This document shows positions 49,651 to 56,678 of a stretch of 64,000 nucleotides of DNA, in pieces. Within the stretch, counting starts at the first letter, position 1, and every line of letters begins with the position of its first letter. The stretch lies in contig NZ_CP036289.1 of NCBI RefSeq assembly GCF_007748115.1, positions 1,426,001 to 1,490,000 of the forward strand, in the 5' to 3' direction. The notes beneath the pieces were generated by a model. That model searched no databases. It was given only the letters and a program-made list of their open reading frames with translations, and was not told the origin of the DNA. The stretch is from Bremerella volcania (GTDB lineage Bacteria > Planctomycetota > Planctomycetia > Pirellulales > Pirellulaceae). The translations under genes and the position numbers were made by a program.

Positions 49651-50313
49651 TTAATCGGGAAGATTGGGATAGGCTCGGCGCGATGGAGTCGCAGGTGACC
49701 GAGTTTGAAAATGTGGACTTGGCAATGAGCCGTGCGGATGGCTCGGCGCGGCTAGTTCGTAATAGCGAGTGGATTGATGAACGCTTCGCGGGACATGCAG
49801 GATGCGTGACGTTCCCGCAAGCTCGCACAAGACGCAGTGGCAATCGCCAAAGAACTGCTTTCGCTCGACGTGGGTACAGCCTTGTAGAAACGGCCAAACC
49901 ACGCGCGGATCATAAAACCGAAAGAAATACTCCTGCCCGCTTTCATCCTCTGCCAGGAAGATGCTTCGCGCGTGTTTCCGCATGGCCGTTTCGTCGGCGC
50001 TGGAGATCAAGAAGATGCCCAGGTTCTTTCCCCAACGCTGGCTCCACTGTTCGACGAATTCGGTCGACGCGTCAAACTGGATCAGGTACGGGGCGACCAT
50101 CATCATCGCGTCGGCTGCCCGGCCTTCGAAGAGCATCTGGGGGTTCAGCTTGAACTTCTGCCGGCAAAGCACGACGAATTCCCAGTCTTGGGCCGCATCG
50201 ACGATGGCATAGGTGTGCAGGTTCTCGTTGCCTCGCTCCGGCTGGGCGGCGAACTGAAGCATTTGACGCAGCAGCTGAGGGTCGACCGAATCGCTCACTA
50301 CATTTGCCCGCAT
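49651..50313 (-). CDS. DUF4123 protein (type VI effector chaperone-like)
   Basis: A 220-aa protein matching DUF4123: YAIVDAAQDWEF near the N-terminus and YFFRFYDPRVVWPFL in the second half. DUF4123 (Tap-1/TEC) proteins load specific effectors onto VgrG or PAAR. The ATG at 50311-50313 overlaps the end of the PAAR gene by 16 bases; GTG at 50296-50298, overlapping its TAG by one base, is an alternative. The last 45 residues look Pro/Ser/Arg-rich and unlike the family, so the C-terminus may be degenerate. Confidence 0.72.
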   Translation of the reverse strand: MRANVVSDSVDPQLLRQMLQFAAQPERGNENLHTYAIVDAAQDWEFVVLCRQKFKLNPQMLFEGRAADAMMMVAPYLIQFDASTEFVEQWSQRWGKNLGIFLISSADETAMRKHARSIFLAEDESGQEYFFRFYDPRVVWPFLQGCTHVERKQFFGDCHCVLCELAGTSRILHVPRSVHQSTRYYELAAPSHPHGSLPSPHFQTRSPATPSRRAYPNLPD

Positions 50314-50681
50314 TCTGGACACGGCCCGCGACAGACCAGGGGCGTTCCGTTGGCCGCCGCGGCATTGAACGAAGCCGGACCGGGACCGCCACCCATGTCC
50401 CCGATAATCACCGTGGGAAAGCCCATCACCACCGAGCCTCCATGGACCGTCATGTCTCCCATCCGCGCGGCCGGCATGCCTGCGATAAAGACAGTGAGGG
50501 AACCCTTGGCGATCGCATCCGGCGGGCCGACGCACACGGCCATGTCGCCGACGCGTGCCGCCGGCATGCCCCCGATCAAAACGGTGGGGGCACCGATGCT
50601 GATCGGGCCACCAACATGAGGCTTCGGGCCGTCCGACAACGGGCAGACGTGCGGATCACTAATACGTGCTGCGGGTGGCAT
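50298..50681 (-). CDS. PAAR-domain protein
   Basis: A 127-aa PAAR protein. Several copies of the repeat unit are visible: PPAARISD at the start, GGMPAARVGDMAV, AGMPAARMGDMTV and GFPTVIIGDMGG. PAAR proteins form the sharp tip on the VgrG spike of type VI secretion systems. The C-terminus has CRGPCPECGQM, which may bind a metal. No C-terminal toxin domain is fused, so the effector is expected as a separate gene. First gene of the minus-strand cassette. Confidence 0.88.
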   Translation of the reverse strand: MPPAARISDPHVCPLSDGPKPHVGGPISIGAPTVLIGGMPAARVGDMAVCVGPPDAIAKGSLTVFIAGMPAARMGDMTVHGGSVVMGFPTVIIGDMGGGPGPASFNAAAANGTPLVCRGPCPECGQM

Positions 50682-52586: not shown

Positions 52587-54098
52587 TCAGCCACCAATCC
52601 GGTTCACCGCATCCAAAATTGCATGAACCGTCGCCTCCACCGTATCGGTCGAACTCCCGCGCCCGCGGGCAGTCTTCTTGCCGGACTCGATCTCCACGGT
52701 GACTTCCCCTAGGGCATCTCGGCCCAAGGTGGCGCTGTGGACCTGGAAGTCTTTGCAGGTGATGGGGACGCTGGTGATGCGTTCGATGGCCCAGAAGGCG
52801 GCGTCGATGGGGCCGTCTCCTTCCGAGATCTCGGCGGTCTCGGTTTCGTCGCCGCGACGCAGGGTCATCTTCACGTGGGGGGGCTTGCCGGTGCCGTGGG
52901 AGACCTCCAGGCTATCGAGCGTCCAGCCTTGGCGGACTTCGCCGCGGATCTGCTGGTCGCAAAGCGAGGCGATGTCGCCGTCGTAGATGTCCTTCTTTTT
53001 GTCGGCCAGCTTCTTGAACTCGTCGAACACTTCTTGCAGCTGTTCGGCGGTCAGGTGATAGCCGAGGGCCTTCGCGCGGTCGGACAACGCTGCCCGGCCG
53101 CTGTGCTTGCCGAGAACCAGGTCGGTCTTTTCGAGCCCGACGTCTTCGGGACGCATGATCTCGTAGGTGGTCGGCTCTTTGAGCATGCCGTCCTGGTGAA
53201 TGCCAGACTCGTGGGCGAACGCGTTCCGGCCGACGATCGCCTTGTTGCGCTGCACCTGAAGTCCGGTGATGTTGGAAAGCAGCCGGCTGGTCGGCACCAG
53301 GCGCTTCGTGTTGATGTTGGTGCCGACGTTGTAGTAGTCGTGCCGCGTGCGCAGGGCCATGACCACTTCTTCCAGCGACGCGTTCCCGGCACGCTCGCCG
53401 ATGCCGTTGATGGTGCACTCGATCTGACCGGCACCTGCTTCGACGCCTGCCAGGCTGTTGGCGACCGCCATGCCCAGGTCGTCGTGGCAGTGGACGCTGA
53501 TGACCGCCTTGTCGATGTTGGGGACCCGGTTCTTCAGGTCGGCGATGACCTTGTACATGTGGTTGGGGGTGGCGTAGCCGACGGTGTCGGGGATGTTGAC
53601 CGTCGTGGCCCCGGCGTCGATCGCCGCTTCCACCACGCGGCACAGGAAGTCCGGCTCGGTACGGGAAGCATCTTCCGGCGAGAACTCGACGTCGTCGCAG
53701 AAGCTCGCGGCCAGTTTCACGCCGTCGACGCCGCGCGAAACGATCTCCTCAGGCGTCATCCGCAACTTGAACTCGCGATGGATCGCGCTGGTAGCCAGAA
53801 AGACGTGAATCCGCGGCTGCTCGGAATGTTTTAATGCCTCCCATGCGCGCTCGATGTCTTTCGGGTTACAGCGAGCCAGGCCGCAGATCGAAGCGCCCTT
53901 GATGTTGGCGGCGATCTCTTTGACCGATTCAAAGTCGCCTGGCGAAGCGATGGGGAAACCGGCCTCGATGACGTCAACGCCGAGGTCGACCAGGGCCTGG
54001 GCGATCTCCATTTTCTCGGCGCGGTTCATGCTGGCCCCTGGCGATTGTTCGCCGTCGCGGAGCGTGGTGTCGAAGATTTTTACAGTCGGGGTACTCAT
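52587..54098 (-). CDS. leuA: 2-isopropylmalate synthase
   Basis: A 503-aa enzyme that condenses acetyl-CoA with 2-oxoisovalerate, the first committed step of leucine synthesis. The N-terminal FDTTLRDGEQSPG, and metal-binding HCHDDLGMA, are diagnostic; NGIGERAGNASLEEV and HESGIHQDG are further conserved blocks. The C-terminal 120 residues form the LeuA allosteric (leucine-binding) domain. ATG is at 54096-54098. Upstream lies a leucine-rich leader peptide and terminator, indicating transcription attenuation in addition to feedback inhibition. Confidence 0.96.
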   Translation of the reverse strand: MSTPTVKIFDTTLRDGEQSPGASMNRAEKMEIAQALVDLGVDVIEAGFPIASPGDFESVKEIAANIKGASICGLARCNPKDIERAWEALKHSEQPRIHVFLATSAIHREFKLRMTPEEIVSRGVDGVKLAASFCDDVEFSPEDASRTEPDFLCRVVEAAIDAGATTVNIPDTVGYATPNHMYKVIADLKNRVPNIDKAVISVHCHDDLGMAVANSLAGVEAGAGQIECTINGIGERAGNASLEEVVMALRTRHDYYNVGTNINTKRLVPTSRLLSNITGLQVQRNKAIVGRNAFAHESGIHQDGMLKEPTTYEIMRPEDVGLEKTDLVLGKHSGRAALSDRAKALGYHLTAEQLQEVFDEFKKLADKKKDIYDGDIASLCDQQIRGEVRQGWTLDSLEVSHGTGKPPHVKMTLRRGDETETAEISEGDGPIDAAFWAIERITSVPITCKDFQVHSATLGRDALGEVTVEIESGKKTARGRGSSTDTVEATVHAILDAVNRIGG

Positions 54099-54267
54099 AA
54101 TTGTTTCGTAAGTAGTTAGGAGTGATTGTGGGTTGTGTGCCAGTTGAAATATCTCACCGCCGGCCGCAAGCCGGCCCGGCTAGGAGGAGGATCGACACAC
54201 TGGCCACTCCGTCGAATTTGTGGAAAGCGGGGATCGCCATGATTTTATCAGGGGAACTTACGTCAAC

Positions 54268-54303
54268 AAAAAAAGCCCTAAGGTATTGGGCCTTAGGGCT
54301 TTT
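54268..54303 (-). terminator. leuA attenuator terminator hairpin
   Basis: A 13-base perfect stem (54271-54283 and 54291-54303), 7-base loop, followed on the minus strand by seven U (complement of 54268-54274). It lies between the leader peptide and leuA. The left arm in transcription order contains CCCUAA, which can instead pair with UUAGGG (complement of 54336-54341) just upstream, the expected antiterminator. Confidence 0.85.
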
Positions 54304-54337
54304 GGTGATCTCGTTTTGTGCGAACGTGAAACCTTCC

Positions 54338-54391
54338 CTAACACCCGGAGGTGATCAGCAGCAGTTGCAGCAGCAGGAGGTTTTGGTTCAT
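54338..54391 (-). CDS. Leucine-rich leader peptide of leuA
   Basis: A 17-codon reading frame on the minus strand encoding MNQNLLLLQLLLITSGC and a TAG stop. Seven of 17 residues are Leu, in a run of four and a run of three (mostly CTG), followed by Ile and Thr. It is placed between a good promoter (54433-54461) and the terminator hairpin, the classical arrangement in which ribosome stalling at Leu codons prevents termination. The upstream ribosome-binding site is weak (GAG about 15 bases before the ATG). Confidence 0.85.
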   Translation of the reverse strand: MNQNLLLLQLLLITSGC

Positions 54392-54432
54392 GGTTAAATC
54401 TTGCTCGGGTTCGAGTGGATTTGCTATGAATG

Positions 54433-54461
54433 ACTCTACTTCCGCTTGCAGGTTCGGTCAA
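54433..54461 (-). promoter_or_regulatory. Putative sigma-70-type promoter of the leuA leader
   Basis: On the minus strand, TTGACC (complement of 54456-54461) and TAGAGT (complement of 54433-54438) are separated by exactly 17 bases. Five of six and four of six bases match the -35 and -10 consensus. A start about 7 bases further on would give a leader of about 35 bases before the leader-peptide ATG at 54391. Confidence 0.6.
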
Positions 54462-54595
54462 CCGGGCGTTTTTTCGTAAACCGCGATTTCCTCGGACCTT
54501 AACGGCAATTTGGGCAAAATCGGCGGGGCATCTGTCCGATATTTCAAGCAGTCAGACTTCTAACCAATAGGCGGTCAGGAGAAGGGTACCAAGCC

Positions 54596-54838
54596 ATGAC
54601 GGATCGCTTGGACGTCACCAACGAACCAGAATACGGTCAGCCAAAGCCGAAAGCCGAGGACGAGCGCAAGCCGCGCCCGTTTCTGGGGGTGAAGTTTGAT
54701 TGCTGCAGCATCTACTCGCGGATCTATCAGAACAAAGACCGCACGCACTACGTCGGCAACTGCCCCAAGTGTGCCAAGCAGATCCGCATTCGCATCGGCC
54801 ACGGCGGCAGCAGCAACCGCTTCTTTACCGCGTATTAG
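54596..54838 (+). CDS. Small Cys-containing hypothetical protein
   Basis: An 80-aa protein with an acidic/basic N-terminal half and Cys residues in FDCCSIYSR and NCPKCAKQIR. The C-terminal CPKC with the earlier CC could form a zinc-ribbon-like site. No named family is recognised. ATG at 54596. It is followed at 125 bases by another small gene on the same strand. Confidence 0.6.
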   Translation: MTDRLDVTNEPEYGQPKPKAEDERKPRPFLGVKFDCCSIYSRIYQNKDRTHYVGNCPKCAKQIRIRIGHGGSSNRFFTAY

Positions 54839-54962
54839 ACTGGGCCAACTTGGAAAGGTCTTCTCGCAGGTGCTATCGTGAAGTGATAGCACCCACGGCC
54901 GCGTCCATCTTGAGTCGCGGCATCAATTTCCGTACGATCTGCCGCCCCCAACTTTTTGGAAG

Positions 54963-55475
54963 ATGGCTGTCATGATCGACTTCGACATTCAACGCTGCAC
55001 GAAAAAGTGCCACGCCACCGAGCGCGAACTGCGCCCCGGCGACGAGTACTTTTCGGTCCTGGTCCCGGAAGGGGCCGAGGTGGTCCGGCAAGACTACAGC
55101 AAAGAGGCCTGGCAAGGCCCGCCCGAAAGCGCGATCTGTTGGTGGAAGGCCACCATCCCCGATCCTCAGTCGGCCAAGGTCAGTTGGGCCCCGCACGACA
55201 TCATGCTCGATTACTTCGAGCAACTGTTGCAAGATCCTAAACAGCAAGATGCCGCTTACGTCGTCGCGCTGCTGATGGTGCGCCGCAAGATCGTGCGGAT
55301 GGAAGAGACCGAGAAAGGAGAAGACGGCATCGAACGCATGGTGCTGGTTGGACTCAAACGCGAGGGGAACTACAAGATTCCTGTCGTCGAGCCAACCTCC
55401 CAGCGGATTGCCGAGATTCAAAACGAACTGACGTCGCTGCTTCAAACAGGCGACCAGCCAACGGACCAGCAGTAA
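54963..55475 (+). CDS. Hypothetical cytosolic protein
   Basis: A 170-aa protein with two Cys near the N-terminus (RCTKKCHATERELRPGDEYF) and one further Cys-Trp-Trp (ICWWKA). The N-terminal block resembles a small metal-binding or zinc-ribbon-like module found in conserved planctomycete proteins. No function is known. ATG at 54963. The lipoprotein gene follows after 24 bases, so the two are likely one transcript. Confidence 0.62.
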   Translation: MAVMIDFDIQRCTKKCHATERELRPGDEYFSVLVPEGAEVVRQDYSKEAWQGPPESAICWWKATIPDPQSAKVSWAPHDIMLDYFEQLLQDPKQQDAAYVVALLMVRRKIVRMEETEKGEDGIERMVLVGLKREGNYKIPVVEPTSQRIAEIQNELTSLLQTGDQPTDQQ

Positions 55476-55499
55476 CAAAGTGAACGCAAGGATGCGCCA

Positions 55500-56678
55500 G
55501 TGACACAATTCAAGCTGCAGGGGATCGTCGCGATCTTGTTGGTTGGTTTCGCTTGCGGTGCCGGTTGCCCGCAATTTACTCAGCAGGTCGACCCGATGTA
55601 TCAGCCCCCGGTCGTCTTCAATGCCCCGCCGACGATGGAGCAGTTGATGGCCCAGGTCAACATGAACACGCAGCGCGTGCAGTCGCTCGAATCAACCGGC
55701 GCGACGTTGGGCCTGCAGGGGTTTCCTTCGATCCGGGCTCAGATCTACATGATGCCCCCGACGAAGTTTCGCATGATTGGCGAAACGGCACTGACCGGTC
55801 AACTGTTGGACCTGGGCAGCAACGAGCAAGAGTTCTGGGTGTGGGGCCGCGGGTTCAACTCGCCAGGGCTGATGTATGCCCGGCACGACGAATTCAACCA
55901 GACGATGGCCAAAACGATGCTGCCGGTCGAACCAGGCTGGGTAGCCCAGGCCATGGGGCTGGCTCGCTTCGACCCCAACGACTTCCACCAGGGACCTTTC
56001 CCGACGGCATCCGGCAACTACGAGATCCGCACGACGATGAACTCTTCGGCCGGGCAGATCACCAAGGTTACCGTCATCGACAAGCAGTACGGCTACGTGC
56101 TCGAGCAGCACATGTACGACGCCGCGGGGCAGCCGATCGCTTCAGCGCTGGCCACCAATCACCGTTACGATCCCAGCTACGGCGTTTCGCTGCCGTACAA
56201 GGTCGACATTCGTCTGCCAAAGTCGGGGATGGACTTCTCGATCTCGGTGATCGGTTACCGCATCAATCAGCTGACCGAAGGGACCGGCACGTTCAGTCGA
56301 CCGCAACGTCCTGATGTGCCTGAGATCAACCTGGTACATAATGCTGGGCAGCCGCTGCCTGGCGGTCAGGCCTACTCCAGCGGACAACCACTCCCCAGTG
56401 GTCAGCCGTTGCCGGGGGCACCGTATGCTCCCACGAGCCAGCCCTATCCTAATAACGGTCAGATGCTTCCCTCGGGACAGCCGCTGCCAGCTAATAACTA
56501 CGCCCCTGTGCAGCAGGCACCAACCGGCTATCCGCAATCGAGCCCACCGTATCCGTCCGGAGGGGGCTTTCCGCTGGGAAGCAATACGCCCACCGGGGCC
56601 GTCAACGCGGTAAGGCCGGTGTACGAAACGGCCGCCCAGCAAGACTACCAGTCACCCCCGATCCGCGGACTGCATTAG
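55500..56678 (+). CDS. Probable lipoprotein with proline-rich repeat tail
   Basis: A 392-aa protein. The N-terminal hydrophobic stretch ends in FACGAGC (C19 and C23), a lipoprotein-like signal. Residues about 30-260 look like a beta-rich LolA-like fold. The C-terminal 120 residues are a Pro/Gln/Gly/Ser-rich low-complexity tail with repeated GQPLP-type units (about residues 280-330). GTG start at 55500. It could be an outer-membrane-associated lipoprotein; the partner is unknown. Confidence 0.7.
   Translation: MTQFKLQGIVAILLVGFACGAGCPQFTQQVDPMYQPPVVFNAPPTMEQLMAQVNMNTQRVQSLESTGATLGLQGFPSIRAQIYMMPPTKFRMIGETALTGQLLDLGSNEQEFWVWGRGFNSPGLMYARHDEFNQTMAKTMLPVEPGWVAQAMGLARFDPNDFHQGPFPTASGNYEIRTTMNSSAGQITKVTVIDKQYGYVLEQHMYDAAGQPIASALATNHRYDPSYGVSLPYKVDIRLPKSGMDFSISVIGYRINQLTEGTGTFSRPQRPDVPEINLVHNAGQPLPGGQAYSSGQPLPSGQPLPGAPYAPTSQPYPNNGQMLPSGQPLPANNYAPVQQAPTGYPQSSPPYPSGGGFPLGSNTPTGAVNAVRPVYETAAQQDYQSPPIRGLH

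Follow-up and report, generated by a model that had tools for sequence, protein, structure and literature searches.

The window, by which we mean the whole stretch of 64,000 nt from Bremerella volcania that was analysed (contig NZ_CP036289.1, positions 1,426,001 to 1,490,000), codes for 2-isopropylmalate synthase (leuA) on its minus strand. Read in the direction of transcription, the region upstream of leuA contains a promoter-like site, a short reading frame rich in leucine codons (uORF1), an intrinsic terminator and a second short frame with leucine codons (uORF2), which has a hairpin near its end. All features are collected in Table 1. An earlier note on this DNA had described the elements up to the terminator as a complete transcription attenuator in front of leuA; uORF2 and its hairpin are absent from that account. 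Upstream of the leader, two ORFs overlap on opposite strands (54575-54892 on the minus strand, 105 codons; 54596-54838 on the plus strand, 80 codons), and neither has a Pfam match above its cut-off. Elsewhere in the window, an ORF with PAAR-like repeats was seen by eye (50298-50681, minus strand).

Table 1. Features of the leuA upstream region and a related attenuator of the same genome. Positions are those of the window unless stated otherwise.
Feature	Position	Strand	Basis
Promoter-like site TTGACC-17-TAGAGT	54433..54461	-	TTGACC 54461-54456, 17 bases, TAGAGT 54438-54433, read directly
uORF1, leader peptide MNQNLLLLQLLLITSGC, 17 codons; stop TAG, then GG	54338..54391	-	read directly
Region 1 (AAACCUCC), at the first Leu codons; predicted partner of region 2 if the leader is untranslated	54376..54383	-	MFE fold
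First Leu run, four codons CTC CTG CTG CTG	54368..54379	-	read directly
Second Leu run, three codons CTG CTG CTG	54356..54364	-	read directly
Small hairpin CACC(UCCG)GGUG in the last leader codons	54342..54353	-	predicted in 9/9 genus members
Region 2 (UUAGGGAAGGUUU), holds the leader stop codon; 5' strand of the antiterminator	54329..54341	-	predicted
CCCUAA, 3' strand of the antiterminator, within the 5' arm of the terminator	54293..54298	-	fold of 54366-54291
Intrinsic terminator, 13-bp stem and seven U	54268..54303	-	folds at -19.2 kcal/mol (z -4.45) and co-varies among relatives
uORF2, MAIPAFHKFDGVASVSILLLAGPACGRR, second Leu-coding ORF, between terminator and leuA	54154..54240	-	frame conservation in relatives
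uORF2 Leu codons CTC CTC CTA	54181..54189	-	sequence
Hairpin GCCGGCU(UGC)GGCCGGC, 5 nt 3' of the uORF2 Leu codons	54159..54175	-	co-variation in relatives
leuA, 2-isopropylmalate synthase	52587..54098	-	NCBIfam NF002086, 757.7 bits, cut-off 532; start at 54098
Ile/Val/Thr-rich attenuator before citramalate synthase-like gene	own genome G000:C1:3719537-3719605	-	also at L161, L015

uORF1 is indeed the 17-residue frame that the earlier note had described, with its seven Leu codons grouped as four and then three. Thus, seven of the 17 codons in front of leuA specify the end product of the pathway; none of them is CUA. A Shine-Dalgarno motif was looked for before uORF1 of the window, and none was found. 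The promoter-like site could be read directly where it had been claimed. The terminator, announced as a perfect 13-bp stem with seven U, is borne out both by the sequence (AAAAGCCCTAAGG(CCCAATA)CCTTAGGGCTTTT at 54303-54271 on the minus strand, without mismatch, and seven T at 54274-54268) and by the stability of its fold. The whole leader folds at -40.7 kcal/mol (z -3.16).

Loci from nine genomes of the genus and the best 80 loci from GTDB yielded 88 distinct leuA upstream regions. A first scan for a Leu-bearing ORF before a terminator was positive in 69 of 89 rows, of which 66 were retained after removal of a duplicate (L019, from the same contig as L007, excluded from all counts of 88 or fewer) and of two misplaced cases (L050 and L055, with the ORF-terminator pair far from the usual place, excluded from the pairing, spacing and codon counts on 66 loci). 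A strict scan required a Leu-rich ORF that ends 20-60 nt before a terminator. It was positive in 63 of the 88 regions, leaving 25 that fail, and in none of 1760 dinucleotide shuffles of these regions. Applied to both strands of the 64-kb window, it gave a single match, which is uORF1 with the terminator before leuA. The conservation in relatives on which the attenuator had been staked beforehand was therefore found, with a Leu-rich leader and a terminator at 63/88 leuA loci. The promoter-like motif recurs as well: TTGAC..TAnnnT with similar spacing is present close upstream of uORF1 in 37/66 loci (base-shuffled controls: mean 0.3, maximum 2/66). It should be noted that the 66 loci include close relatives, so that tests on them are not tests of independent rows.

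The arrangement extends beyond the order of the window. Seven leuA loci were sampled from one family of another order of the class, and each of them has a Leu leader, TAGG at its stop and a terminator. In other classes, two of 20 leuA loci were positive, one of them doubtful, and the other 18 showed nothing; these 20 are the loci with the best leuA match rather than a random sample. A further leuA attenuator was recognized by eye (L141). One more locus of the order of the window has no attenuator in a 600-nt scan, which may have been too short, as uORF2 lies 308 nt upstream there. Two records titled Alphaproteobacteria and Candidatus Kuenenia (L020 and L091) carry leuA genes that are 74% and 70% identical to that of the window; their bins or titles may be wrong.

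Across the 66 loci, uORF1 has 15-30 codons, 38% of which code for Leu. An ATG start was read for 64 of them by a scan that favours ATG, and a Shine-Dalgarno-like tetramer precedes the frame in 15 by a loose count. The leader stop is followed by the terminator at a distance of 27-54 nt (34 nt being the commonest), and TAGGG is found at the stop in 44 loci. Of the 462 Leu codons in the leaders, 21.6% are CTA; among the 2350 Leu codons of the leuA genes, the share is 2.4%. CTA and TTA taken together are commoner in the leader than in leuA at 52 loci. In 53 of 65 loci, the segment before the uORF1 stop has a lower folding energy than the mean of its codon shuffles.

The terminator co-varies in relatives, with 61 doubly changed cells compared with 18.0 after shuffling, a count reached by none of 500 shuffles. 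Alignment A2 holds 46 of 48 listed sequences (L025 and L076 are left out); 16 named loci and other stop contexts had been excluded beforehand. The complementarity of UUAGGG (54341-54336) to CCCUAA (54298-54293), proposed as the antiterminator, is present as described. When the leader is cut before the terminator loop, it folds into this antiterminator at -17.4 kcal/mol. The stability of the fold for the stalled-ribosome state does not exceed that of shuffles, either in the window itself (z -0.16) or in the genus, where all nine members gave z values from 0.0 to 1.0.

In the 66 loci, the stop region pairs with its own terminator arm at a mean of 14.8, compared with 13.5 for swapped partners, which is above all of 5000 permutations. 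Each locus may choose its own pairing register in this test, and the antiterminator helix of the genus loci is under-counted because the arm taken for them stopped inside CCCUAA. If a ribosome is modelled over the Leu codons, the predicted folds have 71% of the terminator 5' arm paired (49% in shuffles), and 62 of the 66 loci exceed their own shuffles. With the ribosome at the stop, competitors to the terminator are weak (mean -3.9 versus -19.5 kcal/mol). Counts of co-variation in a single register are mixed, because UAGGGG and UAGGGU sequences pair one base apart: one fixed alignment register is below shuffles, and the next is modestly above them (30 cells versus 20.6, reached by 3/500). A two-register count is reached by 29 of 5000 permutations. 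Co-variation of the antiterminator is thus clear only with locus-specific register choice. Folding predicts an alternative antiterminator that would be free under a stalled ribosome and covered by a ribosome at the stop codon.

The earlier note had assigned the 1:2 pairing to ACCUCC (54352-54347) and GGAAGGU. The complementarity exists, but it is not borne out as the 1:2 pairing. Seven of eight genus mates have a changed ACCUCC, and for each of the nine members a small hairpin is predicted within this stretch. When the full leader is folded, the partner of region 2 is AAACCUCC (54383-54376), at the first Leu codons. This duplex is predicted in 9/9 genus members (-8.9 to -11.7 kcal/mol, compared with -4.8 to -8.1 kcal/mol at 54347-54352). 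We thus reject 54347-54352 as the partner. According to the folds, the 1:2 partner lies on the first Leu run, which is the sole change needed to the earlier account of the elements it had seen. Textbook attenuators likewise have region 1 on their control codons.

The attenuator model has a second strong match in the same genome (E 3.5e-6). It lies upstream of a LeuA-like gene; in L016, a genus mate, the corresponding gene matches the citramalate synthase family TIGR00977 (654.7 bits against a cut-off of 450). Its leader (MLQPVTVITVVSTISIVGDPTTLA, followed by a stop codon) is rich in Val, Thr and Ile and has TAGGG and a terminator. Leaders of this Ile/Val/Thr type were seen by eye at citramalate synthase in all eight genus loci fetched. 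The gene for DAHP synthase has a Phe/Tyr/Trp leader and a strong terminator in 9/9 genus genomes. In B. volcania, this leader ends in SWQFTFGFYFPYFPSRAEDSV and a stop codon, and its start is uncertain. At the DAHP synthase loci (L193, L192-L200), the terminator is found about 275-320 nt before the profile match. The same scan detected no leader with terminator at ilvB (0/9), trpE (0/8, and 0/1 for a second trpE type) and hisG (0/8) of the genus. As read from the sequences, the codon identity of the leader follows the pathway within one genus: Leu for leuA, Ile/Val/Thr for citramalate synthase and Phe/Tyr/Trp for DAHP synthase. Attenuator model R2 also matched stretches without leuA elsewhere in the phylum. 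A Phe/Trp-rich leader precedes a DAHP synthase gene elsewhere in the phylum (L150). Upstream of a gene for prephenate dehydratase (L135), a stretch of Phe codons was recognized by visual inspection; the script called no complete leader at this locus.

The second frame, uORF2, has a characteristic layout in relatives: codons for Leu-x-Leu (LxL), five bases (in 27 of 34 listed sequences) and then a 7-bp hairpin with a 3-nt loop. Alignment A1, on which the uORF2 model is based, contains 32 of the 34 listed sequences (L032 and L068 are left out). In A1, 97.3% of the hairpin cells are paired, a share that is biased upward because 26 of the 34 sequences came from a script that requires the hairpin (the other eight were added by eye). 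Doubly changed cells number 15, compared with 3.8 after shuffling. Pairs with a change on both sides number four, which, unlike the cell count, is reached frequently by shuffles (80/500). Taken by itself, the hairpin stretch of the window is no more stable than its shuffles (z 0.35). In six loci (L021-L024, L028 and L029), uORF2 ends within the hairpin, and its stop codon (UAG or UAA) forms the 3-nt loop.

The uORF2 model is closely tied to leuA. At E 0.1, it matches 40 of the 88 leuA loci, 39 of which have E values below 0.001, and the 453 kb of these loci contain no other match. From the 66 loci with uORF1 and terminator, it matches 39 and misses 27. The genome of B. volcania has one strong match, at leuA (E 2.3e-7), and the next is at 0.69, so that a dispersed repeat is rejected. 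Within the order, the model matches 70 of 196 genomes at E 0.01, a count that includes false matches because five of 20 further regions, fetched for weak matches, have no leuA in the stretch (L173, L175, L176, L178 and L179). The other 15 have leuA downstream on the same strand (L182 mirrors L109). All 29 of the best matches fetched adjoin leuA (12 loci repeated, 17 new). In 294 genomes outside the order, only three matches were found, and these are marginal (near 1e-4). uORF2 was looked for at eight leuA loci of the other order and was not found; uORF1 and the terminator stand alone there. L109 and L182 (G012:C241:18420-18817) are two mirror copies of leuA and leader on one contig, facing apart, which is probably an assembly artefact.

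uORF2 is also conserved as a reading frame. An in-frame ATG is present within 30 codons at 56 of 62 uORF2 loci, compared with five and ten in the other frames. Arg occurs three codons before LxL in 43/62 loci (written by six codons) and Ala two codons before it in 36/62 (four codons). The second codon position is the least variable one upstream of LxL. Because these residues are written by many codons and the second position varies least, it is the peptide, residues rather than bases, that is conserved. The Arg-Ala pair is missing from seven listed genus members, including that of the window. The middle LxL codon is not Leu in 25/59 loci (Val, Ala, Pro), and Pro is found just into the hairpin in 55/62. 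L182 and two loci mistakenly anchored on uORF1 (L035 and L174) are left out of the 62-locus count; the 59-locus count also drops L105, L166 and L180; for the codon-position variability, the script set no anchor in L163, L171 and L177. In 28 further loci, Leu at both LxL ends and the hairpin were conditions of the anchoring, and neither feature is taken as evidence there. In four loci (L033, L084, L088 and L089), uORF2 is longer and its stop overlaps the leuA start (ATGA), which suggests translational coupling in some lineages.

Two roles of uORF2 with respect to leuA itself were rejected. It does not cover the leuA start, as there is no excess pairing between the two (1.28 expected pairs, compared with 1.78 after shuffling; 18 of 59 loci are above the control). 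It is not part of a frameshifted or fused LeuA, because its frame relative to leuA falls in all three (24, 18 and 17 of 59). The stretch from the hairpin to leuA has more C than G in 49/59 loci.

We conclude, with a probability of about 0.9, that a leucine-responsive, ribosome-mediated transcription attenuator controls leuA. The complete attenuator proposed by the earlier note is supported by conservation, by the co-variation of the terminator, by the pairing of the stop region and by the codon match at two other genes. The leader probably shuts the gene off when leucine is plentiful, as a switch read by the ribosome like that of E. coli. We infer the following course of events. Transcription would begin downstream of 54433, and a ribosome would trail RNA polymerase through uORF1. 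If Leu-tRNA is sufficient, the ribosome would reach the UAG and cover region 2, so that the terminator forms and RNA polymerase halts near 54268. If Leu-tRNA is scarce, the ribosome would stall at the Leu codons, and region 2 (the stop codon and the adjoining GGG) would pair with the 5' arm of the terminator, which allows read-through into leuA. In an untranslated leader, region 1 at the first Leu codons would capture region 2, and the terminator would form.

Read-through transcripts would carry uORF2, with its Leu codons about 5 nt before the conserved hairpin. By general ribosome dimensions, the hairpin would lie just outside the ribosome while the first of these Leu codons is decoded. If translated, uORF2 would most likely be a second leucine or ribosome checkpoint rather than a cover of the leuA start. 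With modest confidence, we favour a second pause point that acts via Rho, mRNA stability or ribosome traffic. It is tempting to speculate that leucine synthesis in one planctomycete order is gated twice on one RNA, by the terminator attenuator and then by the uORF2 peptide (xRAxLxLxxP) with its hairpin, which would time a pause at the Leu codons and thereby set the yield of leuA. We put this forward tentatively and would not bet on it at even odds.

uORF2 might instead encode an arrest peptide (xRAxLxLxxP), the nascent chain of which would stall the ribosome through its own sequence while the hairpin stands at the entrance of the ribosome; in this way it would sense leucine or an intermediate of the pathway. 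The conservation of Arg and Ala as residues rather than bases (43/62 by six codons and 36/62 by four), the non-Leu residues in the middle of LxL (25/59) and the Pro just into the hairpin (55/62) are consistent with this. However, the Arg-Ala pair is missing in seven listed genus members, among them that of the window, and conservation of the RNA may account for that of Pro, whose codon lies within the hairpin. We consider an arrest peptide unlikely on balance. It is more doubtful still that uORF2 and its hairpin are the main regulator, as a translational or Rho-dependent leucine switch, and that the terminator mainly sets a basal level. The conserved frame and co-varying hairpin, together with the adjacency of leuA at 29/29 of the best loci fetched in the scan of 196 genomes of the order, would fit such a role, as would the excess of C over G (49/59), which is expected of a loading stretch for Rho but is also seen in many leaders. 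However, uORF2 was not found at the eight leuA loci of the other order, where uORF1 and the terminator occur, its model misses 27/66 loci that have both, and there is no pairing between uORF2 and the start of leuA (1.28 versus 1.78).

The leucine-responsive attenuator itself faces two rivals, both of which we regard as very improbable. uORF1 and the terminator could be chance neighbours, or the terminator could belong to an upstream minus-strand gene, with a leader that regulates nothing. Short Leu-rich frames are indeed easily found, the leader of the window has no Shine-Dalgarno motif, and a minus-strand ORF of 105 codons lies upstream (54575-54892). However, chance does not account for the lack of matches in 1760 shuffles, for recurrence in two orders or for the different, pathway-matched residues at citramalate synthase and DAHP synthase, and the promoter-like site stands between that ORF and the leader. 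T-boxes, riboswitches and protein-binding leaders control amino acid genes in other phyla, but for such a leader in place of a translated one there is no Rfam family at gathering score in 53500-55500 (Thr_leader reached 21 bits versus 55), only tRNAs were matched in 17 related loci, the T-box model had no match there or at the leader of the window, and conservation lies in reading frames and simple hairpins.

Among the known systems closest to the proposed attenuator is the Leu_leader of enterobacterial leuABCD, which has a leader with Leu codons, including rare CUA codons, and a choice between antiterminator and terminator. These traits and the target gene are shared, with the CUA codons found here in relatives. 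In contrast to Leu_leader, the antiterminator strand starts at the leader stop codon, and uORF2 comes after. The Rfam covariance model of Leu_leader is absent among the matches up to E 5 in 53500-55500.

The actinobacterial LEU element upstream of leuA is described as a pseudoknot, the base stem of which joins a Leu run to the Shine-Dalgarno box of leuA (PMC1262725). As there, uORF2 is a small ORF with a Leu run before leuA; unlike the LEU element as described, it has no excess pairing to the leuA start, and it follows a terminator attenuator. This comparison covers nested folds. Branched-chain amino acid genes of Staphylococcus aureus, in another phylum, are described as having a leucine-rich attenuator peptide (PMC5794164), which is likened here by that description: it is a Leu-rich peptide that likewise controls branched-chain amino acid synthesis. 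The attenuator of Corynebacterium glutamicum ilvBNC is described as having a leader region with alternative hairpins (PMC11857589); alternative hairpins are likewise proposed here, in front of another gene and in another phylum, and none was found at ilvB of the genus (0/9). A survey from 2010 states that, ermC aside, no leader-peptide system had been demonstrated outside proteobacteria and actinobacteria before the case from Firmicutes that it reports (PMC2965389). A study that tallies the leader genes of planctomycetes according to how far away the following gene lies does not use the word leuA (PMC4833913). Among the literature matches listed on planctomycete attenuators, none describes one by title or opening of the abstract, with subscription papers mostly outside the scope of the search. 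The matches listed on structured RNAs and tandem leaders likewise contain no planctomycete attenuator.

The proposed mechanism is a known one; by the literature matches listed, the phylum is new for it, and so is the tandem variant. uORF2 is a conserved small ORF tied to one gene, and if its part in a double gating is true, it would represent a new kind of leader.

Planctomycetes have long been discussed for their unusual cell plan. If the attenuators of this genus act as proposed, with codons matched to each of three pathway enzymes, they imply that transcription and translation are coupled in these cells, and they may serve as simple reporters for testing this coupling.
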